Part shown: positions 28,026-45,855 of the stretch, piece by piece | Layout of the letters: every line of letters starts with the position of its first letter | How positions within the stretch are numbered: position 1 is the first letter of the stretch | DNA from: Periconia sp. R9002 | Lineage: Eukaryota > Ascomycota > Dothideomycetes > Pleosporales > Periconiaceae | Reading direction: 5' to 3' | DNA: 64,000 nucleotides | Assembly (NCBI GenBank): GCA_023627715.1 | Contig: JAMAHW010000035.1 | Coordinates: 248,001 to 312,000 of the forward strand | The notes under the pieces: generated by a model | What the model was told of the DNA's origin: nothing | The model's database searches: none | Seen by the model: the letters and a program-made list of their open reading frames with translations, nothing else | Program-made: the position numbers and the translations under genes

Positions 28026-28670
28026 TCACACGTGTGTCCGGCTACCTTGGGACGGATGCTGCTTCTTCTGACTGCAGTTGATGAGATGCGCCAAGTGCTG
28101 GTTCATTGCTTTATCCAGCATTTTTCCAAAGTCGCCGTGAGATTTGGCAAGTTCCATATACGTCTCGCAGTTAATCGTCCTGGGCATTGCCAACACATCC
28201 ACTGCATTCCGAACAATCTGCCCGCAGAGTTCAGGAACGTGCTTGTAAATCGCTTTAATATCCGACTGGCTGATGCGACCTGCCGCCTTCTGGATGCGGC
28301 CACGAAGAATAATGTTGAGTCGAGCCGCCAGTGAATCATACTCCATGACCTCTGTCAGCTGATAAAGTTCGCAAAGGCCTGGGATGTCCATCCGATCAAT
28401 TTCGATCTTACAGTTCAGATCAGACTCGCCTGCATCTATGTACAAGGTAATCCCCCGAGCAGAAGTCACATTGCCGTTGGGTTCCAGCAAGAAAGCATCA
28501 CTGGACTGATGTTGCTTTCCAAGTCCTGTGTAACGGCTCAAAAGGGCGAAAGACAAGTCTCCGACTGCGATGGCCGTACCGTCATAATCGGTGGTGATCA
28601 GGACATGGACCTTCTTTCCAGAGTTCAGCTTTGCGGTTTCAACTGGATTGATTGTCGGCTTTGAGTTCAT
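28026..28670 (-). CDS. BTB/POZ-like protein of the island family, tail frame-shifted
   Basis: 214 residues. It aligns along its length with the 32.1 kb protein: AKLNSGKKVHVLITTD versus YKLKNGKKATILARVS, then a SLAARLNIILRGRI helix, and IKAIYKHVPELCGQIVRNAV...LAMPRTINCETYMELA versus IEGVYQAFPQFQNSLVKNVV...LLVPKVMNYQPYAEL. The beta-hairpin start, mid helices and DxxxL...L order suggest a BTB/POZ fold (moderate certainty). The frame stops at HPSQGSRTHV, before the shared tail, but the +1 frame reads VAGHTCDRTE, a relic of the tail motif NGxGLxTCDR. An indel has therefore removed the tail from the product. A weak TATA-like GGTATATC lies about 75 bp upstream. Confidence 0.65.
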   Translation of the reverse strand: MNSKPTINPVETAKLNSGKKVHVLITTDYDGTAIAVGDLSFALLSRYTGLGKQHQSSDAFLLEPNGNVTSARGITLYIDAGESDLNCKIEIDRMDIPGLCELYQLTEVMEYDSLAARLNIILRGRIQKAAGRISQSDIKAIYKHVPELCGQIVRNAVDVLAMPRTINCETYMELAKSHGDFGKMLDKAMNQHLAHLINCSQKKQHPSQGSRTHV

Positions 28671-29146
28671 TTTTGATTTATAGAGAGAAGGTCGTAAGAA
28701 TGAGTTGCGATGATCCGGGGAACCTAGGAAGCATTCTGCGCTTGATATACCTGGACTCGGTTTTTCATTGTGCAGAACATTGTTTGACCTTCAATTTTAT
28801 AGTCATTAGTCTGATGAACAATGGAAATGGCAATCGTTGGCTTCGCAAGCTGGGCCGCTAGTCACCGAGGTATTGAAAATGTGGTGCTGGCTAGTGGAAC
28901 GCGGAAGTTAGGCGGAAGTCGGGTGGTGGATGGTTTTGTTGGAAGAAATGACTCACTAACCCAAAAGCTCTCTACCTTCATGACATTTATTTACCTGTTT
29001 GTGTCTCAGTCAAGCATGCTTCCTCTACCTAAATACCGTGAATAACTTTGAATGATCGTGTGCGAAGACAAATACTCTTTCGGTGAATAATGAAAATAAG
29101 CCAGGCGAACTTTCTTCGTGAAAATTTGTTTTTTGTCGACGCTCTC
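28671..29146. other. Spacer with partial CATTGT/ACAATG elements
   Basis: Upstream of the 28 kb BTB-like gene. CATTGT occurs at about 28766 and again at about 28775, and ACAATGG follows at about 28816. These are the half-sites of the island promoter element but not in its usual N6 spacing. No gene seen. Confidence 0.4.
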
Positions 29147-30181
29147 CTAACCGAAAAATGTGGCCCACTCCGGCTTCGAGGTTTCGGAAGGTTTGTAACA
29201 CCTAAAATACCAAAACATTGGAAGGAAGAATATTCGCCAGAAGAAATCGAATACAAGGACATTTTTGTAATCACCCCTTCCAAAGACACAGACAAGCTCT
29301 CGGCTGAACGGGAAAATGTACAGCAGCCAGGAAGCAATAGTTGTAGCCATGGAGTAAAAAAAGCTGTATAGCGTGTACCTGTAATCCAAGCTATGTAAAA
29401 CAACCAGGATACCCAAAAGAAGCAAAATCAACGTAAGCGAGATTAGTTTCCGTAAGGGCAACGAAATGCTGAACCTTCTTTCTTGTACCAATATGAAAAT
29501 TGTATGGATGAAAATAGCGACAAAATGTCCTAGTAGTCGATACCCACGAAATCTGTATCGTTGGGTAAGGTCCCGATCAGGTTCTTTTGCTGCAAAATCA
29601 ACCCAGGCTAGCGAAGCAAGTTGTAGAAGCACAGCAACGCAACCTAATCCTTGATCCCACCTATCCGAGAAGATAATTTGTCGTTGATTTCTGGATATCA
29701 TTTGTTCTGGCCGAGCATGTTTGGCCATGTGGCAGAGAAAAAACCATACAAGGAATGAGGTGAAATAGCAATAGGCCCATATCTGTGACCAAAGGATTCC
29801 GGAGGACGCCGATAGCTTGATCAACGAATAGGCAATTCCGACTAGAAAAATACCAAAGCGGAAAATATGAGGGCATTCAGGTCCCAAGACTCCCCTGGAT
29901 CTGGTTTGGAGGTCGTATTTTCTATCCTCTAGGACATGTCGAGCCGCTGTAAACAGCGATTGGCGTGGTTGTAAGGCGTATTTGATGAACCGCGTTACAA
30001 GCACCAAGGTGTCAGCGACACAAACAAATGGTGAGCTTCTGAGATATATGCTACGTGAGGGCTCGAAGCCACAGATACTCCCGCATGGTTGGACCATTGT
30101 ATTGAGACCGATACTGAACAGTGACCAGTACAATTCTCCAGGGGCAAGTGTTATATTCGGGTTGCCGTTCATTTCTGACAT
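29147..30181 (-). CDS. Orphan polytopic membrane protein
   Basis: 344 residues in one exon. About eight hydrophobic segments can be drawn, for example FVCVADTLVLVTRFI, FRFGIFLVGIAYSLIKL, IWAYCYFTSFLVWFFL, VAVLLQLASLAWV, LLGHFVAIFIHTIFILV and ISLTLILLLLGILVVL. A cytosolic loop (LQPRQSLFTAARHVLEDRKY) is basic. I do not recognise the family and see no catalytic motif. It has the island's minus orientation but lacks the shared tail and has no intron. An inverted repeat ACATTGT...ACAATGT lies about 490 bp upstream of its ATG. Long, uniform membrane character supports a real protein rather than a chance frame. Confidence 0.6.
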   Translation of the reverse strand: MSEMNGNPNITLAPGELYWSLFSIGLNTMVQPCGSICGFEPSRSIYLRSSPFVCVADTLVLVTRFIKYALQPRQSLFTAARHVLEDRKYDLQTRSRGVLGPECPHIFRFGIFLVGIAYSLIKLSASSGILWSQIWAYCYFTSFLVWFFLCHMAKHARPEQMISRNQRQIIFSDRWDQGLGCVAVLLQLASLAWVDFAAKEPDRDLTQRYRFRGYRLLGHFVAIFIHTIFILVQERRFSISLPLRKLISLTLILLLLGILVVLHSLDYRYTLYSFFYSMATTIASWLLYIFPFSRELVCVFGRGDYKNVLVFDFFWRIFFLPMFWYFRCYKPSETSKPEWATFFG

Positions 30182-30719
30182 GATCGCCGCAAGGACTGTG
30201 TGTCCAGATCTGGATTTGAGCTCGATTCAATTTTGACTAACTTAGGACAGGCGTTGTATGGGTTGGCGATGGATTAACCGTTGGAGGACAGATAGGGCTT
30301 GATAAGAACGTTGTGTTGAAATAATTCAGCTGCCAAGCATGTTAGGCAGCAATTCAAAAATACGAAAGTGGTCCGAGATCTTAATTTGTTATACGCGAGG
30401 GAGGACGTTTGTCTTATCAAAATACGAACTGCGAGCTCAACTGTGATCGAGGACGTTGTGTGTATAGTCACGTCTAACTGGATACGTAAGGTGGGGGGCC
30501 AAGGCTGCCTAATTCTACATGCAGGTGGGGTAGATTTCAACCTTACCGCCTCGTTCGAGGCGAACAGTTTCGACAAGTGCCAATCAGAGCTAAAACTTTG
30601 CACACCCGGAAAACCTATCGAGTATTGGCTTGTAGTCACACCGCGAAAATCAGCTTTGTAGAAAACAACATTGTCTACAGTTGAGATACGGACACAATGT
30701 TCATATCGGTGCTCCCCAG
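30182..30719. other. Spacer with long opposing frames, no supported gene
   Basis: Two roughly 100-120-codon frames overlap on opposite strands (30274-30639 minus, 30368-30661 plus). Neither resembles a family I know and neither has splice or promoter signals that I can support. An inverted repeat ACATTGT...ACAATGT with a 20-bp spacer lies at 30669-30701. Confidence 0.4.
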
Positions 30720-31017
30720 AAAAACATGCCCCCCTCCCCTGGTCTGGCGTATGTTATTAAAATCAGTAAAAATTAGTGATTACATCACTCTACATGTACT
30801 TTACCTCATATTACATATACTCTGTATACTCTTATTAGCCCCCCTCCTTGTAAAACACCCTACGGTTGTCACTTTTAGGGTAAAGTATACTAAAATTTAA
30901 CATATATATACTATTTCTAACATCTGTATACTATTTCTAATAGGTTCTTACCTATTCTGATAAGCCCTCTCCTTCTTTTCACTTAGGCTAAGGGTAGGGG
31001 GGGGGGGCATGTTTTTT
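30720..31017. mobile_element. MITE-like element with C-rich terminal inverted repeats
   Basis: The left end reads AAAAACATGCCCCCCTCCCC (30720-30739). The right end is its near-perfect reverse complement, (T)AGGG...GGGCATGTTTTTT at about 30993-31017. The roughly 255 bp between them is very AT-rich and non-coding, with tandem TACTATTTCTAA-type repeats. Size, inverted ends and lack of coding fit a non-autonomous DNA transposon (MITE). I could not define a target-site duplication, so the exact ends and superfamily are open. Confidence 0.5.
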
Positions 31018-31360
31018 CGAAAACGACTATAACACCATACATCCCATGGCGCCAAGCGCTCGGTATAGACCTCGCCGTATCTGCTGTTCCCAACTGTAAC
31101 AGTACACTAACCCTCCTCGGGCTTATCCATCATTTCTATTCCTATTCCTCGCACAATTGCCCGGACTCTAGTAATTGTAAAATAATCCCTTGACCAAACA
31201 TATTTCGTTACATTACTTTTTATCGACAGCTTATCAAATTTTATCACCAGTTAATGAAGAATCAAATTGCATGTACTGTAAAAGTGTTGTATTATAACGA
31301 TGCGCGAACAAATTCTACCTAATAGTCTCTTGCGAATGGTTCTTTCCGAATAACTACGGG
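31018..31360. other. AT-rich spacer
   Basis: No coding frame or repeat family recognised between the MITE-like element and the truncated BTB-like copy. Confidence 0.4.
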
Positions 31361-31672
31361 CTATATCAAAAGACCTGTCCTAATTGTATTGCCCTTGCGG
31401 ACCTCGCGGTCACAAGTCCGGAGACCTCCACCATTGCTAGCTACGGGTATGGTCTTTGGGTTCAGGTTCTTCTTGGAACCACGGTGTTTCTTCTGTGCGG
31501 CTCTAGCCGCGTAGTACTTGTTGCCACAATCAATTCGGTGAGCCAGGGTATGACCCATAGCCTCATTTAGGTCAATTTGAAATGCAGGGTTTTGCGCAAC
31601 AAGTTCCACGTAGGGCTCATAATTCATTGCCTTTGGCATGAGCATGAGCTTGACTACATGCTCCATGACCAT
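31361..31672 (-). pseudogene. Truncated BTB-like protein, C-terminal half plus tail
   Basis: The 103-residue frame corresponds to the last 43% of the 32.1 kb protein: VVKLMLMPKAMNYEPYVELV, HRIDCGNKYYAARAAQKKHR, then the tail VASNGGGLRTCDREVRKG and RTGLLI. Similarity continues upstream of the ATG (EGLQTSS versus EGVYQAF) to an in-frame TGA near 31704. This is therefore a 5'-truncated copy rather than a native short gene. The tail has one change against the consensus (GNTIRTG for GEMTRTG). Immediately upstream lies a second, decayed tail (31729-31791), so a recombination junction probably formed here. Confidence 0.7.
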
Positions 31673-31728
31673 GGAAGAAGTTTGTAGACCTTCTCAGTGC
31701 ACAACCTTTTGAACTAACAGGCTGATAT

Positions 31729-31791
31729 GAGTTATTGCGGCCTTTCGAACTTCACGGCCATAGTTTCGGATACCGTAGCCATTACTAGTGA
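31729..31791 (-). pseudogene. Decayed copy of the shared tail
   Basis: Read on the minus strand, this segment gives VTSNGYGIRN then YGREVRKAAIT. Compare VASNGGGLRTCDREVRKGEMT of intact members. The invariant Cys and Asp of TCDR are lost, and no body precedes it: a TAG sits directly before the Val. It abuts the truncated BTB-like copy at 31361-31672. Confidence 0.55.
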
Positions 31792-32112
31792 CCTACACTG
31801 CATATAATCTCTGGCTCGGAATAGTGGTCATCATATATTTCTTAGCATAAAATTGGGGTTTCTTGCTAATGTTGATCAATGGGATGCTGCTCAATGAGCT
31901 GTTTACTTTGTCACCAATCAGAAAATAAGTCAATAGTATACAAGTTGAAAGAATCGTATTATAAGGACCCACACGTAAGGGAAATCGCCCTGAATGTGAT
32001 TTGAAAAATAATAACTCAATATATGAAAAAGGCCATAAGGTTCTTCAGCACCTTCACTGCCAGCAGCGTAGGCTATCTGACTCGAGCTCCGTCATGCCAG
32101 ATGCCTGCCCCT

Positions 32113-32820
32113 TTAGATGAGGAGACCGGTTCGCGTCATCTCCCCCTTGCGGACCTCGCGGTCGCAAGTCTGGAGACCTCCACCATTGCTAGCCACGTGA
32201 ATGGTCTTTGGCTTGAGGTTCTTGTATTTCTGGTAACCAGACTGCTGCTTCTGGGCGGCTCTAGCCGCATAGTACTTCTCACCGCATTCAATGCGATGTT
32301 TCAAGTGCTGTTGCACAGCTTGTTCTATGTCATTCTTGAATGACAACTCGGCGTAAGGCTGGTAATTCATGACTTTTGGTACCAGCAGTAGTTGTACGAC
32401 ATTCTTGACAAGGGAGTTTTGAAATTGAGGAAAGGCTTGATAAACGCCCTCAATTTCCTGCTTGCCAAGAAATTCGTGATGAATACGGCTATTGATGATC
32501 TTGTCAATGCGTTCCATCAAGGACGCATAGGCAAGATACTTTGCGACATCGTAAATGTCGCAGAGGTCGATGATGGAGAACTGGTGCAGCTTTTTCGAAC
32601 CGTCCTTCTCCCCAGCAGCCATGTACGTTAATACCCACCGAACACTGTTTGGGTGCCCGTCGATAACGTAACGGTCATTTTCACCTTTCGTTTTTGCCCA
32701 TCCAGAGTGATGGGTCAACAAAGTGATAGGAACACCCTCCATTGCTACAGTCACCTCACCCGACACACGGGCTAGTATGGTGGCTTTCTTGCCATTCTTA
32801 AGCTTGTACGCGGAGGTCAT
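32113..32820 (-). CDS. BTB/POZ-like protein ending in the shared island tail
   Basis: 235 residues from the ATG at 32820 (MTSAYKLKNGKKAT); an upstream in-frame ATG at 32952 lies above the TATA box and is unlikely to be transcribed. Order: a beta-hairpin start (ILARVSGEVTVAMEG), a loop with YVIDGHPNSVRWVLTYMAAG, a helix FSIIDLCDIYDVAKYLAYAS, then a second helical part (IEGVYQAFPQF...VVQLLLVPKVMN), a basic linker (KYYAARAAQKQQSG) and the tail NGGGLQTCDR...GEMTRTGLLI. The strand-helix pattern and DVAKYL suggest a BTB/POZ fold, usually a protein-protein interaction module. The tail is the same as in the CCHC genes. No intron. This is the intact reference copy of the BTB branch. Confidence 0.75.
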   Translation of the reverse strand: MTSAYKLKNGKKATILARVSGEVTVAMEGVPITLLTHHSGWAKTKGENDRYVIDGHPNSVRWVLTYMAAGEKDGSKKLHQFSIIDLCDIYDVAKYLAYASLMERIDKIINSRIHHEFLGKQEIEGVYQAFPQFQNSLVKNVVQLLLVPKVMNYQPYAELSFKNDIEQAVQQHLKHRIECGEKYYAARAAQKQQSGYQKYKNLKPKTIHVASNGGGLQTCDREVRKGEMTRTGLLI

Positions 32821-32930
32821 TGTGGTATCCGTTTGATTAGGATTTGTGCTTTTTGTGGTTGTTATTTGAGTGGTTTGTAGTGTTGAGTTGTGAGTTTTGT
32901 GGTATAAGACAGGAGCTGATCTGGAGTAGA

Positions 32931-33014
32931 TATATATACTTGTACGATGCACTTCAGACTATAACGTTGTGGAATGAGAAATGCAGAAAACATATACATT
33001 GTATTGGAACAATG
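32931..33014 (-). promoter_or_regulatory. TATA box plus CATTGT-N6-ACAATG palindrome
   Basis: The TATA-like run TATATATA at 32931-32938 lies about 110 bp upstream of the BTB-like ATG. The perfect inverted repeat CATTGTATTGGAACAATG is at 32997-33014, about 60 bp further up. The same pair is found upstream of the CCHC genes. Confidence 0.6.
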
Positions 33015-33380
33015 GACATCATTGATGTGGAGGATCTATGTCCTTGCTGTTTTGATCACATTGTTACATAGAACAATAATTGAAAGCAAGACCTTCCCGA
33101 AATGGCTGAGTGTGTTCGTGCCATCCTCCATCATTATCTGGTCGATCTGTAACGAGATAAAACGTCATGACGAGGGCGTTATAATGATCTCGATTCGACC
33201 ATCCAAGACGGGATTCTCCAGAAGATTATGAATTTGTAGGCCTCATAGAAATCGGGTAGATAAATGGTTTCGTTTCACGGGCATGTCTGGTCTTTCTCAC
33301 CCGCAGTCAATTACTGCAAGATCTAAATGATATGGGGGAATTCCCATTGACCATCAATCATTCATTGGTGAACTTTTTTT

Positions 33381-33557
33381 TTACGACGGAGTCAGCAGGA
33401 AATTGGCGACACCTTCCATGGCGACCCACGACTCGCCAGCCTTGCTGGCCAGAACTGTGACTATCTTCCCAGTTCCCAGCTTGGCGACTGCTGCCCGGCC
33501 CACGGGTATTGGTTGTCTGTTCTCTTTCTTGATCTCCAGAGCGGGATTTTTAAACAT
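33381..33557 (-). pseudogene. Solo N-terminus of a BTB-like island protein
   Basis: A 58-codon frame (start 33557, stop 33381). Its second half, AAVAKLGTGKIVTVLASKAG then WVAMEGVANFLLT, matches the first 30 residues of the 32.1 kb protein (KLKNGKKATILARVSGEVTVAMEGVPITLLT). It stops right after that hairpin, so neither the rest of the BTB-like fold nor the tail is present. No palindrome or clear TATA box is seen upstream. Most likely a 3'-truncated copy. Confidence 0.55.
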
Positions 33558-33801
33558 ATGTAGTTAAAACAGTGTCGATTCAGTGACTATCAACGCAATG
33601 ATAATGAGTAAAGTAGGATAGATCTTGGTGGAGCAGAGAGCGCGTTCATATTTGGGAGAAAATTGTCTGTCAACGCAAGTAGAATTTGCTTGATTGCATG
33701 CTCGATGATTGCTAATGCGTTTGTTCTCCCCAAGTTTTTATTTTAGTGAAACATTCAAACATCAGATCAACTGAACGTTGCATACAGCAGGAGTCTCTGC
33801 G

Positions 33802-34026
33802 TCAAGTGATTGCTTGTGTATATGTGCATTTTGTAACAAAAGAATAAGAATCTCGTGGCCGCAAAAGAGCGATAACTGGTGCCTTCAGAAAAATACAAGT
33901 AGATTGCAATGATTCCGGCTCATATCGCATGTATGTAAGACAATTGCAATACTCAATTACTTGTGCCAGCACCTGCGCGTCGATTGGTACATCAATACTT
34001 CCAGCGGAAGTCAGCCACTGAGCCAT
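33802..34026 (-). pseudogene. Possible middle fragment of a BTB-like domain
   Basis: The 74-codon frame contains SIDVPIDAQVLAQVIEYCNC then LTYMRYEP, which looks like the strand-helix centre of a BTB fold (acidic IDxxVLxxVIEYC). It is 250 bp upstream of the solo N-terminus on the same strand, in the wrong order to belong to it. Evidence is pattern only. Confidence 0.25.
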
Positions 34027-34274
34027 AATAATGCGCTATCACCCTGCACGTCTTATTTCATAGATCTGTGAGTATGGGTATTAGATTGCAATAGCACATA
34101 TACTACGTAGGTGGCCTAGGCCTAGTTTAGAAATTATTTTAAACGCGTGATAATAGAAATTCGATGATAAAATCACGAAAAACGGTGGGTGGGTGAAAAA
34201 AGAGCAATTGTGAGTCTAGGCAGGAGAAGAAACGACATGCCCGCTCAGGTATCATACATTACTATTCTGTTTAT

Positions 34275-35941
34275 TTACACAACCAACCCAGAATTAGTTT
34301 CCCAGGTTTCGTCATTGTCAGATTCCTCCTTGTTTTGTTGTACCATCGTAAGGATCTCCATGATTCTTCGTACAGGAACCGTGGCAGGATCGCATGAATC
34401 TAATATGCGTAGAAGAATGGCGTTCGGTGGGTGTCTGCTCCTATTTCTTTGCGCAAAAACCCAGCTATGCGTGCCTTGTCGGTCCCATCTAGAGAAGGAA
34501 CGACGCAACACTTGTCTCTCTTCGTCCTTACCAAACCTCACTCTCAAGTTTTGGCCCAGAATGATGAGATGGTGGGCGAGCATTTCGCACAAGTGCGCAC
34601 GCATCTCGTCCCACAACTTGGAGCCTTGAGACGTAGTGATGTTTTGACCCACAGAAGTCCACCGGGAGTACCCAATAGCAAGAATAGTTCCGAAGACCAG
34701 GAGAAACAGAACCTGCTGTTTTTCAACGGTGGCTGTGGAAAGCACCTTTGGTTCTAATTCTTGGTCGAGGTAGCTGAGGAATTCGTCTCCCGCTGCGGCA
34801 GCTAACTGTTGTACCGTAACTATGGAAAACTTACCCCCTCGCGTGTGCTGGTTGGAGTAAGGGTACGTGGACGAGGTGCAGTAGAGCATCTTTTGAAACA
34901 ATAAAGATGCTTCTGGGGGTACATAATTCCGGATCAACTGCGCGAATTGTGAAGAACTGAGTATGCCGACCTTTGAAGTCCTGCTGGTGGTTTCTGAACG
35001 AAGGAATTCCACCACGTCGGCGACGATCCACGATGTCGTCCATACCACGTCAAAGTTCACCGAAATGCCGCTCATATTGAGGTTCTTCGCATTCTTCCAG
35101 TAATCACGTGACATGTCGGTGGTGTTGGGGATACCTATTAAGAATGAGTTTCAAGACCAATGGTGAAATATGGAGAACGTCAGAGACATACATAACCGAA
35201 AGATACTGATATCAGAAAATGGTACACGTCGCATGCACAGGCGATGTGAGAGAATGGACTCATTCTCTGCAAAAATGCATCTTCGGCAAATTTCTCCAGG
35301 GGCATTACTCTCGCACTGATATTTGTTAGTTGACTAGAAATCATCCAGGCGGGATGAGGCAACTGGAATCTTACGGTAACGCCCATGACATGACAAATCA
35401 TACATGATTGCTTCTTCAGCAGGCTCAGCTTGAAGAGACTGTTAGAATCGGTTCTGTTTGTTTTCTGCAACCGCAGGATGCACGACTCCTGAGACTTGAG
35501 AGAGGCAATCGTTGACGGATCGCTTCCTCGTAACGTCTCGTCAATGACCGATACTGGAGCTCTTGCTTTGCGCAAACCTGGACACTGCCACCCTTTTTTG
35601 AGGCATCTTTCACAATCCGATTTTTGGACCGGATCTGGCACACACTGTCATGCGATGAGGATGAGCTGCTTCTTGATGGGCACGTGTTCGTCCTAACTTA
35701 CTTTCATTTTGGCTTTTCGACAAGGGTCACACTTTTCGCGTGAGAGCTTTCGGGGAGGTCTCCTGGGTAGTGGAGAGTAATGGTGTTGTTTTGATGAGTC
35801 CAAACCATCGCTTTGCCGTGGACAGATGGGCTGGGGTCCTTTGTTCGGCGGGCTGCAACACATATTTTGCGGGGACTTGGCGTTGCTGGCCAGGAGAGTG
35901 ATGAAAAGATAAGGACAAAGCGTCGTATTCTGTTGAGTCAC
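34275..35941 (-). CDS. Zn2Cys6 transcription factor with a second Cys cluster
   Basis: Four exons in coding order: 35941-35702, 35644-35375, 35315-35192 and 35134-34275; introns 57, 59 and 57 bp, all GTAAGT/GTAAGA/GTATGT to AG; 497 residues with consistent phase. The first intron splits the zinc cluster: CDPCRKAKMK joins CVPDPVQKSDCERC, giving Cys at about 71, 74, 81, 91, 94 and 101. Removing intron 2 creates a second cluster, CMICHVMGVTC then GEICRRC (Cys about 161, 164, 171, 180, 183), followed by VPFSDISIFR. The rest is helical with hydrophobic stretches (VLFLLVFGTILAIG). This looks like a nuclear regulator. It is the only transcription factor inside the island, so it is a candidate regulator of it (inference). 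An ATG at codon 27 is an alternative start. Confidence 0.82.
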
Positions 35942-37958: not shown

Positions 37959-38074
37959 TTCGTTTTGCTGTTTTCGTAAAGTTGTTTTTGTAGAAGGAGT
38001 TGTTTTTCAGTAGGATTTTGTAATGAGGAGTGTTCGTTGTTGTCTGTTGAAGGGAAACACGGAGCTGATGAAGA

Positions 38075-38125
38075 TTTATATACGTATCTAAACCCGTAAA
38101 ACACTGTCACTGTGAATTCACAATG
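38075..38125 (-). promoter_or_regulatory. TATA box plus palindrome, copy 1
   Basis: TTTATATAC at 38075-38083 (plus-strand reading). A near-perfect inverted repeat CACTGTGAATTCACAATG at 38108-38125 has one mismatch in the left half-site. Confidence 0.5.
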
Positions 38126-38661: not shown

Positions 38662-39084
38662 TTATATAACAAGTCCGGTGCGAGTTACCTCACCCCGCTT
38701 GACCTCACGATCGCATGTCCGGAGGCCCTGTCCATTCGTGGTCACTTGGATCACGCCCTCAGTCTTGTTGGTTCGTACCTTTGTACGGCAGTTTCTAGCC
38801 ACATGGCCAACCTTGTTGCAGCTGTAGCATTTTACTTGCTGCTTGGCTTTCTTGGGGAAATCTTCACCGCAAGCATAACATTTGCGTTGCAACATGCCCA
38901 TACGCTCCAACACCTTGCAATTACGGATGAGATGGCCCTTTTTGCCGCACCCATAACAATGTTTTGGTGTATGCCGAGGTGCGGCTTCCTTTTGGCCCGC
39001 CGTGGACTGTTGAGAGGTAGGGTGTGCGTTTTGGGTGAACATTTTGTTGAACATTGTGGTTTGTAAAACGATTTTCGAGGGCAT
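38662..39084 (-). CDS. CCHC zinc-knuckle protein with shared tail, copy 2
   Basis: 140 residues from 39084. In-frame ATGs at 39054 and 39042 would fit the usual TATA-to-ATG distance of the family better. Two complete knuckles (CYGCGKKGHLIRNC, CYSCNKVGHVARNC) flank a half-degenerate one (KCYACGEDFPKKAK), which has the first two Cys but not the His/Cys. The tail is VTTNGQGLRTCDR...[10 protein letters not shown]. The segment between the first knuckle and CYACGED (CKVLERMGML) is unique among intact copies but recurs in the 42.8 kb and 41.7 kb remnants, so this sub-type once had more members. Likely a nucleic-acid-binding protein (inference). Confidence 0.78.
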   Translation of the reverse strand: MPSKIVLQTTMFNKMFTQNAHPTSQQSTAGQKEAAPRHTPKHCYGCGKKGHLIRNCKVLERMGMLQRKCYACGEDFPKKAKQQVKCYSCNKVGHVARNCRTKVRTNKTEGVIQVTTNGQGLRTCDREVKRGEVTRTGLVI

Positions 39085-39151
39085 GCTTTTTAAGTTCTGT
39101 TAGAACTTTTGGGGCTTGGTTGTAGAAAAAAGACTAAGCAACCAAAGAGGA

Positions 39152-39204
39152 TTTATATACTAATCCATCACTACTAGAAACACTATCATTGTATCTTAAC
39201 AATG
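39152..39204 (-). promoter_or_regulatory. TATA box plus perfect palindrome, copy 2
   Basis: TTTATATAC at 39152-39160 and CATTGTATCTTAACAATG at 39187-39204, a perfect CATTGT-N6-ACAATG. Confidence 0.6.
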
Positions 39205-39210
39205 TTAACA

Positions 39211-39282
39211 GTTTTCTGTTCTCAGCTTCTTGCCCTTGTAAGAAGCCTTCGGGGCAATCGCGGATCTGATGGTTCTTTGTAG
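39211..39282 (-). pseudogene. Knuckle/linker remnant of a copy-1-like gene
   Basis: On the minus strand the frame reads NHQIRDCPEGFLQGQEAENR, matching DHHIRNCPKKAFHKGKKVGA of copy 1 (last knuckle and linker). The first Cys pair and the tail are gone. It lies directly upstream of the copy-2 palindrome. Confidence 0.5.
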
Positions 39283-39650
39283 AGGGAGATGTTTCAGAGT
39301 AGGATAGTATATTGAGAAGCGTTGATTGTTGAAAGAGAAACCCCCTTACCAAAAGTGCTTTAAGCGTCAAATCCGTGTTTGCATTGACACCTTTCAAAAT
39401 TTATAGATAATCCGCACTTGAGGGATCTTGTATCACGGTGAACCTATGTATATAACTAGATGTGTGTTTGCGAAATTCTGTTTTCAATTGAATGGTCTAT
39501 ATTCCGCCTCAAATACGTTGGTGGATATCGACCTAAACGATGTCCCTTCAATGTGTACTGAGGACATCACACGAATCCCTACCAGGAGATAAGTTTTCTT
39601 CTATGATAAAGCTTGCTGTCCAAATCAGGGCAGATCAAGAAGCTCCAGGC

Positions 39651-40043
39651 TTAGATGATAAGCCCAGTGCGAGTCACCTCGCCTGTCTTCACTTCTCGGT
39701 CACAGGTCCGAAGACCCTGCCCATTTGAAGCCACATCAATCACTCGGGGTAGAGAGCCCCCGGCCTTCTTGTGCGAAGCCTTCTTTGTACGGCAGGTCTG
39801 GGCAAGATGGCCAATCTTACCGCAGCGGTAGCACTTGGTACTACAGTCGTTAGCTACATGACCGACTTTGCCGCAGCTGTGGCACTTGGTGCGACAGTTT
39901 TTGGCGATGTGGCCCTTCTGGCCACATCGGTAGCATTCCAGGTTCTTAGCAACTCGAGCCTTCGACGGACACGATTTGACCAAATGGCCTTGCTGGCCGC
40001 AGGCAAAGCACTCTTTCATACCAGCGAAGAAGTGGGTATCCAT
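39651..40043 (-). CDS. CCHC zinc-knuckle protein with shared tail, copy 3 (4 knuckles)
   Basis: 130 residues from the ATG at 40043 (MDTHFFAGMKECFACG). A longer frame starts at 40169, but that ATG is only about 15 bp below the TATA box and should not be in the mRNA. Four knuckles: CFACGQQGHLVKSC, CYRCGQKGHIAKNC, CHSCGKVGHVANDC, CYRCGKIGHLAQTC. A Lys-rich linker is followed by VASNGQGLRTCDR...[10 protein letters not shown]. It is the most canonical member and a good query for homologue searches. No intron. Confidence 0.8.
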   Translation of the reverse strand: MDTHFFAGMKECFACGQQGHLVKSCPSKARVAKNLECYRCGQKGHIAKNCRTKCHSCGKVGHVANDCSTKCYRCGKIGHLAQTCRTKKASHKKAGGSLPRVIDVASNGQGLRTCDREVKTGEVTRTGLII

Positions 40044-40183
40044 TTTTGGTGGTTGATAATGTCTTGTGTTTCGTTTGTTCTTGATCGAGTTGTTCTGAGT
40101 TTGTGTTTTGTCGAATTGTGTTCTCGACTTGTACTCTCGCTTTTTCTGATTTGAAGAAGAACCTAACACACAGCCGAAGAAGA

Positions 40184-40235
40184 CTTATATACTAATTTCT
40201 CACCACTACATGCACCATTAATGTAGCTCAACAAT
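40184..40235 (-). promoter_or_regulatory. TATA box plus degenerate palindrome, copy 3
   Basis: CTTATATAC at 40184-40192. A weaker inverted repeat with CATTAATGT on the left and ACAATG on the right lies at about 40216-40235. Confidence 0.45.
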
Positions 40236-40508
40236 GTTAGCCTTACTCTTCAATGTGTGTAAACAATGCCGATGAAAGACAGGAAAGTGAGCATCTGCAC
40301 GCCCCGGGTTCTCCACTTCCCTTGTTTCACAACATAGAGGGCTTAGCCACAAAGCAATAGAGAGACCTACTACAATTTGTGGTCCAAGAAAATCTCAGAT
40401 TCATGAAGTGTGGCGTGGTGATGTGATATGCTTTTTACGTATAAAATCAGTCATGTGTTCAAACGAACACTTGGAACGACGGTTCTTCGGGATGCGCCCA
40501 AATGTCGC

Positions 40509-40550
40509 ACAGTTGTCATGAAAGTTGGCAATATGTCCGACTCGGTTGCA
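40509..40550 (-). pseudogene. Single-knuckle remnant
   Basis: Minus-strand reading gives CNRVGHIANFHDNC, one decayed zinc knuckle (the second Cys is replaced by Val, with a 1-residue insertion). The surrounding frame has no other knuckle and no tail. TATA-like ATATAATGG/TATATAGA runs lie at about 40688 and 40796, possibly the remains of its promoter. Confidence 0.45.
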
Positions 40551-41027
40551 TTTGCCCCCATTATTTAATTTTTAGGAAGCCATGAGGCTGGTAGTCGTTT
40601 TGTTGTATATAATTGATTGTCAATGGTCTGATGACAAGTTTAGTAACTTCATAGACCATCGTCTTGCTCGATTCTGAGAAAAGAGAGTATATAATGGAGA
40701 TTGGGTTTTAGTTCCTGTTTGTTCTTCGTTCGATTCGGAGTAGCTTTGGGGCATCGTTATTGTGAGGAGGAACTCACACTTAGCACAGACGACGGTATAT
40801 AGATCATTTTCCTGGCTTCATTAGCATTCGAAATTGAGGTCACTTGATGTAAAAGATTGTCAAAGTAATATAAACATTTGGAGGACTTGTGTGGTATTCA
40901 ATTTCATGTTAATAATCAACCATGCGCCATGATACGTACTGAAGATAAATACTGATCGAAGTATGCATTTTTGAGTTTTCAGTTCTCAAAGGAACGCCAA
41001 ATCAAGGCTGTATAGCAAGCCCTGGAC

Positions 41028-41393
41028 TCAAATCACGAGCCCAGTGCGAGTAACCTCGCCTTTGCGCACCGCCCTATCACATGTGCTAATCCCGGCTCCG
41101 TTAGTGGTCACCTTGATGACAACCGGAAACTGGACATGGTTTTTGCCTTTCGTGAATTTGGGCTTCTTTGTGTGGCGGGCCGTGATTTTCTGCTTGGTCA
41201 TTACGGGTTTTCCGCGGCAATTATCTGCTATGTGCTTGCCCTTTGAGCAGCTGGCGCATTTGGTAGGACAGTTTTTGGCAATGTGACCACCCTTGCCACA
41301 GCGGTAGCACGGGCAATCTTTAACCAGATGGCCCTCTTTTCCACACCTGAAGCATTTTCGCTTCTCAATAGTCTTGGAAGTTTGAGTGGACAT
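41028..41393 (-). CDS. CCHC zinc-knuckle protein with shared tail, copy 4 (3 knuckles)
   Basis: 121 residues, no intron, the shortest copy. Knuckles: [28 protein letters not shown] (directly joined, sharing the Pro spacer) and [14 protein letters not shown], which has Lys for Gly before the His. A very basic linker ([18 protein letters not shown]) leads to [13 protein letters not shown]...[10 protein letters not shown]. The ATG at 41393 is about 100 bp below the TATA box. Confidence 0.8.
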
Positions 41394-41492
41394 CTTTGAA
41401 GTGTTCTTTTGTGTTTGTTGTGCTTTTCTGTACCGTCTAGATAAACAGATTGCAGTGGGTTAAAGAAGAACCTAACACGTACTGGAAGTAGT

Positions 41493-41546
41493 TTTATATA
41501 TACATCTACAAGCCTTCTAGACACTGCCAATTGTGTTCAAACAATG
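41493..41546 (-). promoter_or_regulatory. TATA box plus palindrome, copy 4
   Basis: TTTATATATAC at 41493-41503 and AATTGTGTTCAAACAATG at 41529-41546 (one half-site mismatch, N6 spacer kept). Confidence 0.55.
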
Positions 41547-41610
41547 CCAAGATTGTTCTTCAACAAATTCAATATATATAAACAATGCTCACGGACTAGT
41601 CACGCACCAG

Positions 41611-41755
41611 GAGGCAGTCCCCACCGCAAAGCAGTTTCGCTGTGCCGTACGCTTTCCCAAAGCCATGCACTCGCGGATCGGATGACCTATTTCCCGCAAT
41701 TATGTCTTTCTCGCTCTTTCTTCTTGGGCACTGAGGCTTCCTTGGGGCACGCGTC
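41611..41755 (-). pseudogene. Frame-broken knuckle remnant of copy-2 type
   Basis: Minus-strand fragments DACPKEASVP...HNCGK and, after a frame change, GHPIREC...RTAQRNCFAVG follow the order of copy 2 (CGKKGHLIRNC...LQRKCYACG). A stop and an indel separate the two parts, and no tail is present. Confidence 0.5.
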
Positions 41756-42111
41756 GAACTCGGTAGAGGAGGTCTGCACTTTTAGTACGTCTTAATAGGT
41801 ATCGTAATGCTTATTTTTTTGGTAAGTTGTGATGGCGTAGGTAGGATTGTAAAGTATAATTTGTGAAATTGTATAAAGTGGTGAACCATCGTGAGGAAGT
41901 GTAAACATATAGAGAGAGATAATCCCCCTCTCTTCCATCGACATGGCAAGAAACAGTGGGTTTTGAACAAGTACTCACACCAACTCCAGAAATCACGAAA
42001 GATGTATAAACATTTGAGTGTCCTTGTATGTTGCATAGTATTCATTTTATATTGATTGATCAATGACGCGCGACCGGATACGTGTTGAACTCAGTGGAAC
42101 ATCACCAAGGC

Positions 42112-42516
42112 TTAGATGACAAGCCCAGTGCGTGTGACCTCGCCCTTGCGGACAACCCGGTCACATGTGGCGATTCCACCACCGTTGCTTGCCACAATAA
42201 CAACTGGAAGGTTTGCCTTCTTGCCCTTCGTGCGTACAGGCGTCTTTCCATGGCACTTCGGGGCCTTGTGCTTGGATTGAAGCTCTCCGCCGTTGCACCG
42301 CTTCACCGGGCAGTGCTTCGCAATATGGCCAGTTGTTCCACATTGGTAGCACTTTTTCGGGCAGTTCTTGATGACATGCCCAGCCTTACCGCACCGGTAG
42401 CAGTTCTTCTTGGGGGCGATTTGGTGTTTCGTCGGGCAATCCCGAACCAAGTGCCCCTGGTTGCCGCATGCGAAGCATTCTCGGCCGTCCATAAGAATGC
42501 GTGATTGATTTGACAT
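42112..42516 (-). CDS. CCHC zinc-knuckle protein with shared tail, copy 5 (3 knuckles)
   Basis: 134 residues. Knuckles: CFACGNQGHLVRDC, CYRCGKAGHVIKNC and CYQCGTTGHIAKHC. The linker (GGELQSKHKAPKCHGK, then RTKGKK) is basic, and the tail VASNGGGIATCDR...[10 protein letters not shown] lacks one residue just before VASNG compared with copy 4. The ATG at 42516 lies about 115 bp below a TATA box. No intron. Nucleic-acid binding is inferred from the knuckles. Confidence 0.8.
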   Translation of the reverse strand: MSNQSRILMDGRECFACGNQGHLVRDCPTKHQIAPKKNCYRCGKAGHVIKNCPKKCYQCGTTGHIAKHCPVKRCNGGELQSKHKAPKCHGKTPVRTKGKKANLPVVIVASNGGGIATCDRVVRKGEVTRTGLVI

Positions 42517-42632
42517 TTCTATGAAGCTTTTTCTGTTTTAGTAGTTTAGTAGTTGTTGTTGTGTTGCTTTTTTGTACTGTGTTGAGCAGTTGAGTTGGGC
42601 TATCGAACAAACCACCATGCAGTCGCGGAGCC

Positions 42633-42685
42633 TTTATATACACATCTACAACCCCTACAACCATGTGCATTGTATTTGCACAATG
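42633..42685 (-). promoter_or_regulatory. TATA box plus perfect palindrome, copy 5
   Basis: CTTTATATAC around 42633-42642 and CATTGTATTTGCACAATG at 42668-42685, a perfect CATTGT-N6-ACAATG. Confidence 0.6.
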
Positions 42686-42756
42686 TGTGCACTGTTTATC
42701 AAGCAATATTGTATATACATAATGCTTACGGATTCGTCCTTGGTATTGTTTTCTTA

Positions 42757-42845
42757 CGGCCATCACGTGGCCTGCTTCACCGCAGGCATCAATAGCACTT
42801 TATTTGTGTTATGCGCTCCAAAGCCTTGCACGCACGGACAATATG
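42757..42845 (-). pseudogene. Frame-broken knuckle remnant of copy-2 type
   Basis: Minus strand: HIVRACKALERITQIKCY then a TGA, and in the shifted frame CGEAGHVMAV. This is the copy-2 order (HLIRNCKVLERMGMLQRKCYACG), followed by a GHV knuckle. The break can be read as one nonsense change plus a 4-bp duplication (TGCCTGC). No tail follows; copy 5's promoter begins about 70 bp further on. Confidence 0.5.
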
Positions 42846-43048
42846 GTAAAAATCGTCTCATCGGACTGGGTTAAAGAACTTTCCTTCTACGCAGTATATA
42901 CAAATCAATTCATCGAATATTATAAACATCAATATAGGGGCTCTTGTACGGGAATAAACTTATGGAAATTATCAATTTTTCGTGCTAGCATGTGATAAAT
43001 CCCTACTTACTGAGAGGTGGACCTCTCTCTCGTCAGTCGGACCTGGAC

Positions 43049-43489
43049 TCAAATAACTCCAGTGCGCGTGACCTCACCCTTGCGGGCGATTCTATCACAC
43101 ATTCGGATCCCATCTCCGTTGGTAGCCACTTGGATGACTGGAGCGTGGAACTTCTGACCTTTTCTAGGTCCACGGTTCTTGCCACTATTGTTTGTCTTGT
43201 CCGTAGCCTTTCCGGAGTTGGTAGGGCAGGCATTTGCGACGTGTCCAACTTTGTTGCAGTTGTAGCACTGCTTGGCCATGCATTGCTCGGCTATGTGACC
43301 GATGTGGCCACATCGGTCGCACTTCGTATGGCAGTTCTTAGCAATGTGGCCGGTATTGCCACATCGGTAGCAGCTGATATTCTTCTGACCAACCTTCGAT
43401 TTCATGGGGCAGTTTCGAACCAAGTGATCGGGCTTGCCGCACCGAAAGCAGCCTCGGTTCTCCATAGCGTTGAATGAGATAGTAGACAT
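43049..43489 (-). CDS. CCHC zinc-knuckle protein with shared tail, copy 6 (4 knuckles)
   Basis: 146 residues. Knuckles: CFRCGKPDHLVRNC, CYRCGNTGHIAKNC, CDRCGHIGHIAEQC and CYNCNKVGHVANAC. The linker is Asn/Lys-rich. The tail VATNGDGIRMCDR...GEVTRTGVI differs from the others: Met for Thr before CDR, and one residue shorter at the end (GVI instead of GLVI). No intron. ATG about 95 bp below the TATA box. Confidence 0.8.
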   Translation of the reverse strand: MSTISFNAMENRGCFRCGKPDHLVRNCPMKSKVGQKNISCYRCGNTGHIAKNCHTKCDRCGHIGHIAEQCMAKQCYNCNKVGHVANACPTNSGKATDKTNNSGKNRGPRKGQKFHAPVIQVATNGDGIRMCDRIARKGEVTRTGVI

Positions 43490-43581
43490 TCTGGGTATTG
43501 GGTTTGGTTGTGTTTCTATTGTATTTTGTTGTGTAATTAGTTGGATAGGGTTATTAAATGAACCAACACGCGATCTGAAGA

Positions 43582-43632
43582 TTTATATACACGACTATAA
43601 CGCTGCAAAAACGTTCATTGTATCTAACGATG
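43582..43632 (-). promoter_or_regulatory. TATA box plus palindrome, copy 6
   Basis: TTTATATAC at 43582-43590 and CATTGTATCTAACGATG at 43616-43632 (N5 spacer, one mismatch). Confidence 0.5.
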
Positions 43633-43902
43633 CGTATTCTTTTCAACTATCATGATGTATAACCAATGCTTACGGATTAGTCCTTCGAGATGCTGATTTC
43701 GGGACAACTCAATTCTTTGATGGGCATGCTTTATGCAGTATATACAAATAAATTCACACAGCATTATAAACGTGCAGGGGCTCCTATACGGTATTCAAGT
43801 TATGGTAGATCATCAAATTTGCGTGTTAACATATAATCAATACATCCCTACTAAAGGGTAGGTCTCTGTCGGATCGAACAGGCTGGATGGACCGTCCCAG
43901 AC

Positions 43903-44301
43903 TCAGATAACGAGTCCAGTGCGCGTAACCTCCCCAGTCTTGACCACTCTATCACAGGTAGATAGGCCACCCCCATTAGATGTCACTTTGACAACTCGAG
44001 GGACGATGGGATTCTGGATGTTCTTGTCATTCCTAGGTTTGGCACGGCAGTTCTTTGCCACATGCCCAAATTTGCCGCAGTTGTAGCACTGCTTGGCATT
44101 GCACACTTTCGCGGTATGCCCGATACGGCCACATCGCTCACAGTTTGTTGCACATTGGCTCGCAAAGTGGCCAACCAAGCCACATCGGAAGCACGTCTCT
44201 TGAGCAGCCTTGGACTTTGTAGGGCAATTCCGGACCATGTGGTCGGTCTTGCCGCACTTGAAGCAGCCTTGTGTCTTCGTAGCGGTGATTTGGGTGGACA
44301 T
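43903..44301 (-). CDS. CCHC zinc-knuckle protein with shared tail, copy 7 (4 knuckles)
   Basis: 132 residues from the ATG at 44301 (MSTQITATKTQGCFKCG). A longer frame begins at 44406, inside the TATA box, and is rejected as the start. Knuckles: CFKCGKTDHMVRNC, CFRCGLVGHFASQC, CERCGRIGHTAKVC and CYNCGKFGHVAKNC. The tail is VTSNGGGLSTCDR...[10 protein letters not shown]. Closest in layout to copy 6, and the spacers upstream of copies 5 and 6 share long stretches, so these arose by tandem duplication of a unit of about 1 kb. Confidence 0.8.
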   Translation of the reverse strand: MSTQITATKTQGCFKCGKTDHMVRNCPTKSKAAQETCFRCGLVGHFASQCATNCERCGRIGHTAKVCNAKQCYNCGKFGHVAKNCRAKPRNDKNIQNPIVPRVVKVTSNGGGLSTCDRVVKTGEVTRTGLVI

Positions 44302-44395
44302 TTTCAGAGTGTTTCTTGGTTGTGTGTTAGTTCTTGTGTTTGGTATAGAGTAGTTGAACTGTTTTATCGAAGAAACTAACGCGAGATTCCGAAGA

Positions 44396-44449
44396 CTTAT
44401 ATACACATTCTATAACCCCAAAAACAGGTTCATTGTGATTTTAACAACG
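44396..44449 (-). promoter_or_regulatory. TATA box plus palindrome, copy 7
   Basis: CTTATATAC at 44396-44404 and CATTGTGATTTTAACAACG at 44431-44449 (N7 spacer, one mismatch in the right half-site). Confidence 0.5.
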
Positions 44450-44524
44450 TTCGTGTGTGTTTTCAACGAATTCATTATTCGTATACAATGCAGAAGTATC
44501 AGCGTCTAACTTTGCACGCTTAGA

Positions 44525-44656
44525 TCAACAACGGACCAATTGATCCTTCGCATCGCAGGCAAAGCACTTTCGGTTCTCCTCAGCAGCGAGTGATTCATCC
44601 TCGATTAACGGACCTGGCCACACCGGCGAGGACGGTTTGATTTGATCAGAAGCCAT
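44525..44656 (-). pseudogene. Small ORF with a half zinc knuckle
   Basis: A 43-codon frame (start 44656, stop 44525) begins MASDQIKPSSPVWPGP and ends NRKCFACDAKDQLVRC. The end matches the first knuckle of copies 3-5 (ECFACGNQGHLVRDC) but has lost the His (Gln) and ends in Cys-stop. It could be a decayed copy or a truncated short protein. No tail follows. Confidence 0.45.
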
Positions 44657-45612
44657 GAGGCTCTCCCCGTTGACGGGAACGATCTTAATAGGTCTGGGTT
44701 AAGCCTCAAAACAATGAGATGTTTCGGTCGGCTCGTAGCCGTCATGCTCGAAGAGGAATCGATATTGGTGGTTTTTTGTGAGATATTATATATTCGCATT
44801 GGGTTATGAAATAGTCCCACACGCAGCCATCTATGTTATCACATTATCGCGATCAATTGATAAGGAGTGAATATAGTTAGATTATTGGTGTTTGCGAAGG
44901 CGCGAGCTACCCTAAATTTGAATAGGTGGTGATTAATAGAAGGGCCCTTTGTAAGCCCTTACTATTACCTATTTAAATTAGGGCTGGCTAGATCTATATA
45001 TAAAAATAATATACAAATCTAAGAGAAAACAGAAAATATAGATGTGTAAGGGAGGGATAGTGGGAATTTAAAATGAATCGATTTAGACGATATTAATCCG
45101 ATAATGTAAATAATTATGGGTGACAATTGATAGTAGGAGAAAAGGCTTCTAATATATGCTTACTGTTTGCTGATATCCTGATTGCTAGGTGTTTGTGATT
45201 GCTCTTCTCCAACATAGACCCACACAAATAAATATGTATATATAGATGCATGACGGCTACACGCACCACCACTGTGTGTTCAATACAAAGCCCTACTTTC
45301 GCTTTCGATATTTTGTCCAACGAAATATGTTGTAGTAGTTGGAGACACGTTCATGATTATATAAGGTGTATACTTCACAGGTATATATATTAGGGTTTAG
45401 TTAGTTAGAGCACTGTCCTGACAATCCAAATGTATATTCCGCAAACTCATACCCGCATAACAAATTCTCAGCCAGCTGGTATATACATTTGTAAGAAAGT
45501 ACCGTCCAAAATTTTTTAACACTTGATGAAATGGGAATCACCACCCCTACGGGTGGCTTCACAATGCTATCGAACCACCTTATTTGAGACAGACTCAGTC
45601 ATGACCAGAGGC
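44657..45612. other. AT-rich spacer with a small inverted-repeat element
   Basis: At about 44907-44991, imperfect inverted ends (GCTACCCTAAATTTGAATAGGT and, reversed, GCCAGCCCTAATTTAAATAGGT, shown 5'-3' as separate arms) enclose about 40 bp, like a tiny MITE or a stable hairpin. A TATA-like run plus CACTGTGTGTTCAATACAAAG near 45230-45290 resembles a decayed island promoter with no gene below it. Confidence 0.35.
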
Positions 45613-45777
45613 CTAGACTACAAGGCCAGTCCTTGTCATCTCGCCGCGTTTTACAACACGATCGCACGTGCGGAGACATGCGAATATCTCCACGACTGTA
45701 GCCTTAACAGAAAATCGAAAGAGTAAGTTGAACTCACACGCTCTTTCTGCACCTATTAAGACCTTGAAATGAAAATT
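45613..45777 (-). pseudogene. Orphan shared tail without a body
   Basis: On the minus strand an open frame without ATG runs into FACLRTCDRVVKRGEMTRTG then LVV and a TAG at 45613. The second half of the tail is fully conserved, but the NG-G part has become FACL and no knuckle or BTB sequence precedes it. It is the right-hand edge of tail-containing sequence in the window. Confidence 0.6.
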
Positions 45778-45855
45778 TTATTCCTCGAAATTTCTTAAGC
45801 TTATCCGCATTGAAACCCCAATTCTAAGCATTTTGAAATCCATATTCCCATTCCT

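Follow-up and report, generated by a model that had tools for sequence, protein, structure and literature searches.

The tail-bearing and BTB-like minus-strand genes of this 64,000-nucleotide window (the whole stretch of Periconia sp. R9002 DNA that was analysed) are probably, at roughly 0.78, copies of one three-part gene that lost different modules, and their common C-terminal tail would be inherited, not mobile. The tails are homologous and under purifying selection, the tail genes are confined to a single locus and have promoter dyads in common, and most tail-bearing relatives hold all modules in one chain. On this reading, a multi-domain gene was copied and its modules were divided among the copies, while promoter and tail, the two ends, were retained. 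Simultaneously, the analysis outlines a Dothideomycete protein family with a nearly invariant, C-terminally anchored tail.

The common C-terminal tail

The same approximately 28 residues end nine minus-strand reading frames, seven with CCHC knuckles and two BTB-like, and the TCDR, GE and TRTG blocks at the exact C-terminus, by which the family is recognised, are present in these tails (Table 1; genes are named by their stop position). An HMM of the seven CCHC tails alone, searched against all 2013 stop-to-stop frames of at least 20 aa in the window, recovers both BTB tails (E 7.8e-18 and 9.9e-15) and two decayed relics (E 3.3e-12 at 45613–45687 and 5.1e-5 at 31712–31792), the next frame reaching only E 1.0. 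The sequence-only reading, which counted nine proteins with one ending and judged convergence unlikely, is thereby confirmed in the homology of the tails; however, one of the BTB proteins is a C-terminal half only, and the uniformity of the nine tails is broken at gene 43049, whose tail is one residue shorter at the end. The BTB-like gene 28026 is without an intact tail; just past its end another frame reads a TCDR fragment, which the tail HMM scores at only E 5.2.

In the reverse direction, an HMM built from 19 of the external tails finds 9/9 window tails, with no E value above 5.5e-12. The search with the tail only, proposed earlier as a check, yields a coherent family and not random neighbours. 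The second proposed check, the substitution ratio, likewise gives a conserved tail and not a value near 1: pN is 0.22 and pS 0.73 (pN/pS about 0.3), with synonymous sites near saturation, and the tail is under purifying selection. In 48/49 relatives, the protein ends three residues past TRTG or its variant, with Ile or Val. The earlier reading knew of no described fungal domain with this signature, and no Pfam model reaches its cut-off on the tail; a sub-threshold hit of HTH_Tnp_IS1 to a portion of the 37530 protein tail (E 0.032) was ignored. The tail pattern gave no match among viral contigs, and its 18 matching stretches in prokaryote genomes include no relative. In the predicted models the tail has low confidence, with pLDDT of 52–72 and 51–59.

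Table 1. Tail-bearing genes, BTB-like genes, relics and promoter dyads in the window
Feature	Coordinates	Strand	Remarks
BTB-like protein, 214 aa	28026..28670	-	no knuckle, no intact tail
Dyad of the tail-less BTB gene	28766..28782	-	upstream; one mismatch
5'-truncated BTB-like remnant with tail	31361..31693	-	C-terminal helical part; tail 31364-31447
Decayed tail relic	31712..31792	-	HMM E 5e-5
BTB-like protein with tail, 235 aa	32113..32820	-	no knuckle; tail 32116-32199
Two dyads, BTB+tail gene promoter	32997..33078	-	32997-33014 exact; 33059-33078 one mismatch
Decayed BTB-like N-terminus	33221..33494	-	in more than one frame; E 5e-4; 58% over 31 aa, E 8e-4
Five CCHC knuckles with tail, 142 aa	37530..37958	-	tail 37533-37616; PF00098 E 2e-21
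Dyad upstream of 37530	38108..38125	-	one mismatch
Two canonical CCHC knuckles with tail, 130 aa	38662..39054	-	tail 38665-38748
Dyad upstream of 38662	39187..39204	-	exact
Four CCHC knuckles with tail, 130 aa	39651..40043	-	tail 39654-39737
Two dyads upstream of 39651	40216..40268	-	two mismatches; one mismatch
Possible weak relic, BTB helical part then knuckle	40524..40713	-	three-part order
Three CCHC knuckles with tail, 121 aa	41028..41393	-	tail 41031-41114
Two dyads upstream of 41028	41529..41587	-	one and two mismatches
Three canonical CCHC knuckles with tail, 134 aa	42112..42516	-	tail 42115-42198
Two dyads upstream of 42112	42668..42724	-	exact; two mismatches
Four CCHC knuckles with tail, 146 aa	43049..43489	-	tail 43052-43132
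Dyad upstream of 43049	43616..43632	-	one mismatch; composite pattern, no match
Four CCHC knuckles with tail, 132 aa	43903..44301	-	tail 43906-43989
Two dyads upstream of 43903	44431..44490	-	one mismatch each; composite pattern, no match
Decayed tail relic	45613..45687	-	adjoins NmrA-like gene; HMM E 3e-12

Layouts of the relatives and the origin of the array

The BTB-like part, a knuckle and the tail occur in one chain in 35/49 tail-bearing relatives found, a count made with BTB and tail profiles built partly from the same proteins that they classified. These relatives belong to an unnamed family annotated as 'CCHC-type domain-containing protein' (Periconia macrospinosa DM02DRAFT_694553 and DM02DRAFT_652048, Parastagonospora nodorum HBH71_155850), homologues with the same tail at the exact C-terminus and a BTB-like part and/or knuckles. 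The family unites the three parts in one chain, whereas the window spreads them over separate genes. Among the titles listed by a search of open-licence literature, none deals with a BTB-CCHC-tail family.

In the tree, each of the two long BTB genes of the window pairs as sister with a three-part protein of Periconia macrospinosa (100/100 and 96/95); in the case of the 28026 protein, the sister is P0002 (100/100), with 52% identity to its residues 1–213. CCHC knuckles are absent from the window BTB genes, as from the relatives P0049, P0050 and P0051. The 31361 remnant is 62% identical to residues 133–235 of the 32113 protein. The seven CCHC genes, none of which contains a BTB-like part, are homologous pieces of the BTB-CCHC-tail family and, by layout, not full members. 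The tree built on the tail together with the last knuckle (31 rows, 47 columns) has 2/28 inner branches starred and does not settle the placement of the CCHC genes; the loss of the BTB part in these genes is therefore read from the outgroup layouts and not from the tree. Intermediate losses were found in none of the relatives.

On the loss reading, the tail is the last part of a Dothideomycete protein family in which a BTB-like fold is followed by a linker, CCHC knuckles and the C-terminally anchored tail, and the three-part gene would have been tandemly duplicated at one locus in the window lineage. Loss of the BTB part would have left the seven knuckle–tail genes, loss of the knuckles one BTB–tail gene and one truncated copy, and loss of both knuckles and tail one BTB gene, while most copies would have retained promoter and tail; the order of these losses we infer.

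The sequence-only reading proposed instead that the 3' end of the gene moves between unrelated modules, or that one common tail received a different module by a swap, and the tail is indeed the sole protein part common to the window proteins within this genome. Such mobility is highly improbable, given the 35 one-chain relatives with the three-part P. macrospinosa sisters among them, the common promoters, and the proteins returned, none of which joins the tail to another N-terminal module. DNA similarity is found within the tail in 33/36 pairs at p<=0.01, ends near the stop codon, and extends into the 84 bp downstream in 3/36 pairs; together with the near-saturated synonymous sites, this disfavours a recent transfer of the 3' end. 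In the 42.9 Mb genome, a lower-bound search yields at least 10 tail matches, 10/10 of them within this one cluster, and neither the dispersed copies nor the DNA identity beyond the frame of a mobile or transposable element were seen. A mobile tail or exon shuffling was accordingly rejected on the co-linearity in relatives, the single-locus confinement and the unshared downstream DNA.

The opposite course, in which separate BTB–tail and knuckle–tail genes are ancestral and were combined, in other Pleosporales, to give the three-part protein, is compatible with the knuckle–tail tree and draws on Coniosporium apollinis (Dothideomycetes, order uncertain), whose P0050 has the BTB part and tail without a canonical knuckle, so that BTB–tail may be the oldest layout and the knuckles a later insert. 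Such a fusion is nevertheless unlikely: the sister position of both long BTB genes to three-part Periconia proteins makes the knuckle-less state more simply derived, and knuckle–tail proteins without a BTB part, which may be exon fragments, form only 7/49 of the relatives outside the window, P0034 and P0038 among them resembling fragments of a three-part gene that was cut internally. Meanwhile, the relics at 31712, 33221 and 45613, the possible one at 40524, and the truncated copy 31361 would suit an array of decaying debris without function, but eight intact tail genes, the low pN/pS of the tail and the conserved promoter dyads make this reading scarcely credible.

Promoter dyads and a possible split protein

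The promoters of the window tail genes have dyads of the form CATTGT-N5-7-ACAATG in common, located 25–27 bp before a TATATA box in 7/7 CCHC genes; the dyad was picked after the promoters had been inspected, which makes the enrichment in them circular in part. The promoter of the BTB–tail gene has a mean similarity to the CCHC promoters above 300/300 controls, although its dyad–TATATA spacing is 58 bp, not 25–27, and the composite pattern did not match. For the tail-less BTB gene, the promoter is not alignable and its similarity not significant, 71/300 controls being as good. The earlier statement that the N-terminal parts have nothing else in common applies to the window proteins, and fails for their promoters and for the relatives.

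ATTGTT or AACAAT lies within 300 bp in 7/9 promoters, with counts (1, 2, 2) in 3/9 promoters that fall within the control range; two CCHC promoters contain neither. ATTGTT has been reported as the core of a putative binding site for the mating-type HMG protein MAT1-2-1 (PMC4559316). An HMG-box factor of this kind may drive the genes together, perhaps in the sexual stage, and the resemblance of the dyad to the site of a known mating-type regulator class suggests when to look for expression.

The tail may serve for docking as a linear peptide whose free Ile/Val end is recognised by a single shared partner, and this partner would bring the separated halves together in trans. A rather doubtful proposal is a naturally split protein: the chain that in related fungi unites an oligomerisation domain, nucleic-acid-binding knuckles and the docking tail would here be divided between BTB–tail and knuckle–tail genes with the same HMG-type promoter, and the shared partner would rebuild the complex in trans, leaving knuckle number and dose free to vary, probably in the sexual stage. 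If this is true, separated halves with a common docking peptide and promoter should still act together. BTB parts oligomerise and CCHC knuckles bind single-stranded nucleic acid in their known families, and by analogy the window proteins may do the same.

Likeness of the modules to known proteins

Residues 1–118 of the BTB-like part are supported as a BTB fold by the predicted models, similar to the BTB/POZ and Skp1 fold proteins (Skp1, BCL6, KEAP1 and SPOP). Compared with these, the window family has, after the fold, a helical region and a linker that lead to the knuckles and the tail. For 38 members, the 20 families listed at E<=0.1 do not include PF00651, the Pfam BTB family; the label 'BTB-like' stands on the predicted fold and not on sequence. 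UPF0300 on a BTB protein (E 0.037 and 0.029) is below the Pfam cut-off and was ignored. PF27939 is listed for 2/49 relatives, P0024 and P0038.

The tail profile also matches TAL effector repeats (Hax3), with whole-sequence E down to 2.7e-6, because these contain many copies of one short word with NG in it; the match covers only 12/36 profile positions, no stretch is significant alone, and it was set aside as a chance word match.

The seven CCHC proteins contain 5, 2, 4, 3, 3, 4 and 4 canonical knuckles (stops 37530, 38662, 39651, 41028, 42112, 43049 and 43903), in agreement with the two to five read initially. PF00098 exceeds its gathering score in 7/7 (41 to 78 bits vs 20.8), and knuckle motif and spacing are as in zf-CCHC proteins (PDB structures of Lin-28, AIR2 and retroviral nucleocapsid), among which the tail has no match. 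The knuckle model PF14787 ('GAG-polyprotein viral zinc-finger') is above cut-off in 4/7, but the 20 window ORFs scanned contain no further gag domain and neither a protease nor an RT domain, so that within this set nothing else points to a retroelement origin of the knuckles.

At 40524–40713, the BTB helical part gives E 0.069 and 0.62, and the knuckle E 0.071 vs 0.12 for the best of five shuffled controls. Knuckle-like fragments, each not significant alone and a lead only, lie upstream of several CCHC genes. Translation of gene 38662 could also begin at position 39084, where an earlier ATG lies in the same frame.

The shared tail in the window and genome

The window reading frames were catalogued and aligned, and the tail, a common C-terminal end of about 28 residues containing TCDR, GE and TRTG, was scanned for in six frames. 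It closes nine minus-strand frames, seven behind CCHC knuckles and two behind a BTB-like part, which in the 31361 remnant is truncated on its 5' side. A profile of the seven CCHC tails only recovers both BTB tails among 2013 window frames (E 7.8e-18 and 9.9e-15; best unrelated frame, E 1.0), which bears out the sequence-only reading that CCHC and BTB-like proteins carry a common tail. A profile from 19 tails of other organisms likewise finds 9/9 window tails at E ≤ 5.5e-12.

The window lies on contig C35 of a 42.9-Mb assembly in 267 contigs. In an own-genome search working exon by exon, so that counts are lower bounds, a single tail gives at least 10 matches, 10/10 within the cluster, and the whole BTB+tail protein at least 11, all within the cluster; apart from tails, the latter search hits the query's own gene, the tail-less BTB gene 28026 and the 31361 remnant. 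With the relatives P0020 or P0002 as query, a full three-part gene, joining BTB-like part, knuckles and tail in one chain, was not found in this genome. Matches beyond the cluster, mainly to the knuckle part, begin no earlier than query residue 239 for P0020 and 180 for P0002, and they stop short of the tail.

The nine tails give pN 0.22 and pS 0.73 (Nei–Gojobori, pooled over all 36 pairs). Within the seven CCHC genes, pN is 0.20 in the tail versus 0.41 in 104 other columns, with pS equal at 0.73; synonymous sites are saturated or nearly so, and hence the copies are old.

Relatives and the origin of the array

Three protein searches returned 51 distinct proteins, of which 49 tail-positive relatives were kept; P0003 and P0004, unrelated CCHC proteins, were left out. 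By BTB and tail profiles partly built from the same 49 relatives, 35 combine a BTB match (E < 1e-3, the region being only partly covered in several), one or more canonical knuckles and the tail. BTB plus tail with no canonical knuckle occurs in three (Pyrenophora seminiperda P0049, Coniosporium apollinis P0050 and Periconia digitata P0051), and tail alone in four models of 70–106 aa. Another seven carry knuckle plus tail, some of which may be pieces of three-part genes, since several relatives' models begin inside the gene. The precomputed Pfam label PF27939 stands on two relatives, P0024 and P0038.

Twelve of the 49 come with a named source: Periconia macrospinosa (Pleosporales, Massarineae, Periconiaceae), Periconia digitata, Parastagonospora nodorum, Alternaria panax, Pleomassaria siparia, Dothidotthia symphoricarpi, Massariosphaeria phaeospora, Pyrenophora seminiperda and Coniosporium apollinis. 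Coniosporium belongs to the Dothideomycetes, order uncertain; the remaining genera are placed in Pleosporales.

In the BTB-part tree (28 rows, 269 columns), the nearest named relatives of the window genes are Periconia macrospinosa proteins: P0002 is the sister of the tail-less gene 28029 (support 100/100), and P0005 that of the BTB+tail gene 32116 (96/95). The window accordingly is likely to come from a fungus within Massarineae or close to it. As P0002 and P0005 both carry knuckle and tail, independent loss of the knuckles in 28029 and 32116 is the simplest reading. P0049, too, lacks a canonical knuckle next to its knuckled sister P0018 (100/99), gene-model error being a caveat. The last-knuckle-plus-tail tree (31 rows, 47 columns) is without resolution, 2/28 inner branches being starred: the window CCHC genes fan out in a comb alongside P0001, P0002, P0005 and others, and both window BTB tails form a pair (91/85). 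Loss of the BTB part from the CCHC genes is therefore read from relatives' layouts rather than from a tree. We conclude that the cluster is probably a set of tandem three-part gene copies partitioned by losses (probability about 0.78).

Arrays may exist elsewhere. P0001 and P0041, on contigs of equal size (2153), may be two neighbouring knuckle+tail genes, and the Periconia macrospinosa proteins P0002, P0005 and P0046 likewise lie on contigs of equal size (279,770). The P0046 model (DM02DRAFT_625343), by eye, comprises a BTB end, a knuckle, a broken tail and then the apparent start of another BTB part; this running of copy into copy suggests a tandem array in that species.

Promoters and a possible joint function

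The upstream alignment contains a dyad, CATTGT-N5-7-ACAATG, which ends 25–27 bp upstream of a TATATA box in 7/7 CCHC genes and 58 bp upstream of it in the BTB+tail gene; a second dyad (≤2 mismatches) lies about 35–42 bp farther upstream in 4/7 CCHC genes. Three exact dyads occur in the window against 0.06 expected. All 11 dyads with ≤1 mismatch (43 with ≤2) fall within 300 bp upstream of the nine gene starts, at least one at each of the nine genes including 28029 and 32116, an enrichment that is partly circular because the dyad was chosen after viewing the promoters. ATTGT/ACAAT cores number 3, 4, 4, 2, 3, 4, 4, 1 and 2 per 200-bp stretch in the nine promoters (mean 3.0; control mean 0.44, maximum 3 in 2000 stretches). 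Genome-wide, the dyad occurs at 43 places, three in the cluster, versus 11 for the reversed control. Dyad plus TATATA gives 15 matches versus two, eight of them in the cluster at five CCHC promoters; this genome-wide search gave no match at the BTB genes, 43049 or 43903. The BTB+tail promoter is closer to CCHC promoters than 300/300 control segments; the tail-less BTB promoter is not distinctly like them, 71/300 segments being as good.

In a study of the Fusarium graminearum mating-type protein MAT1-2-1, protein-binding arrays give ATTGTT as a putative core site of its HMG box, and three promoters were weakly bound in gel shifts (PMC4559316). The ATTGTT core of the window promoters agrees with this putative site. 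A motif-enrichment table in a study on sexual reproduction lists a MAT2 motif, ATTGTTTAA (PMC11708053). Control of the cluster by a MAT1-2-1-type HMG factor is hypothesized.

In 48/49 external tail proteins the chain ends precisely three residues beyond TRTG, or beyond its variants TRLG (three proteins) and TRTD (one), and the final residue is Ile or Val in all 48, the exception being P0046 with its broken tail. Spacing is the same in 8/9 window tails, the 43049 gene being one residue shorter. Such a constant spacing suggests recognition of the free carboxyl terminus itself by a partner. Two gene types with similar promoters and the same tail but divided modules suggest continued cooperation of the halves, in which the tail would be a docking peptide common to both. 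Our confidence in this joint action of the BTB+tail and knuckle+tail halves is low; that in the proposed origin is fairly high.

Flanking DNA and relics

Flank pairs were scored against mononucleotide shuffles in 84-bp blocks (p ≤ 0.01). Similar pairs number 33/36 in the 84-bp tail and 3/36 and 4/36 in the following two blocks; upstream of eight genes (28029 and 31361 left out), they number 2/28 in the first 84 bp and 21/28 in the next.

Decayed and weak matches in the array
Feature	Position	Strand	Remark
Decayed tail	31712-31792	-	
Decayed BTB start	33221-33494	-	E 5e-4 and 8e-4
Knuckle-like short fragments	39251-39271, 41664-41690, 42764-42787, 44555-44572	-	located upstream of the promoter dyads in four CCHC genes; not significant individually
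Weak knuckle match	40524-40553	-	after the BTB helical match; not significant alone
Weak BTB helical match	40609-40713	-	between two CCHC genes; not significant alone
Decayed tail	45613-45687	-	

The two weak matches at 40524-40713 follow the order of the three-part gene and are possibly a relic of the ancestor. The knuckle-like fragments would fit an origin of the copies by unequal exchange inside the repeated knuckles.

Fragments at 34278-36001 (-), which lie between the BTB portion of the array and its CCHC portion, resemble, in cysteine pattern by eye, a broken or intron-split Zn2Cys6-type regulator; inside the array, a 359-aa frame at 29150-30226 (-) is hydrophobic by eye. Neither has a Pfam match at E ≤ 0.01. 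Beyond the cluster, an isolated LAKLKTGNKVNV stretch at 49718-49762 (-) resembles Periconia BTB protein starts (80% over 15 aa, E 0.08). G+C is about 0.42–0.49 over the array (26000-46000) versus about 0.46–0.55 elsewhere in the window.
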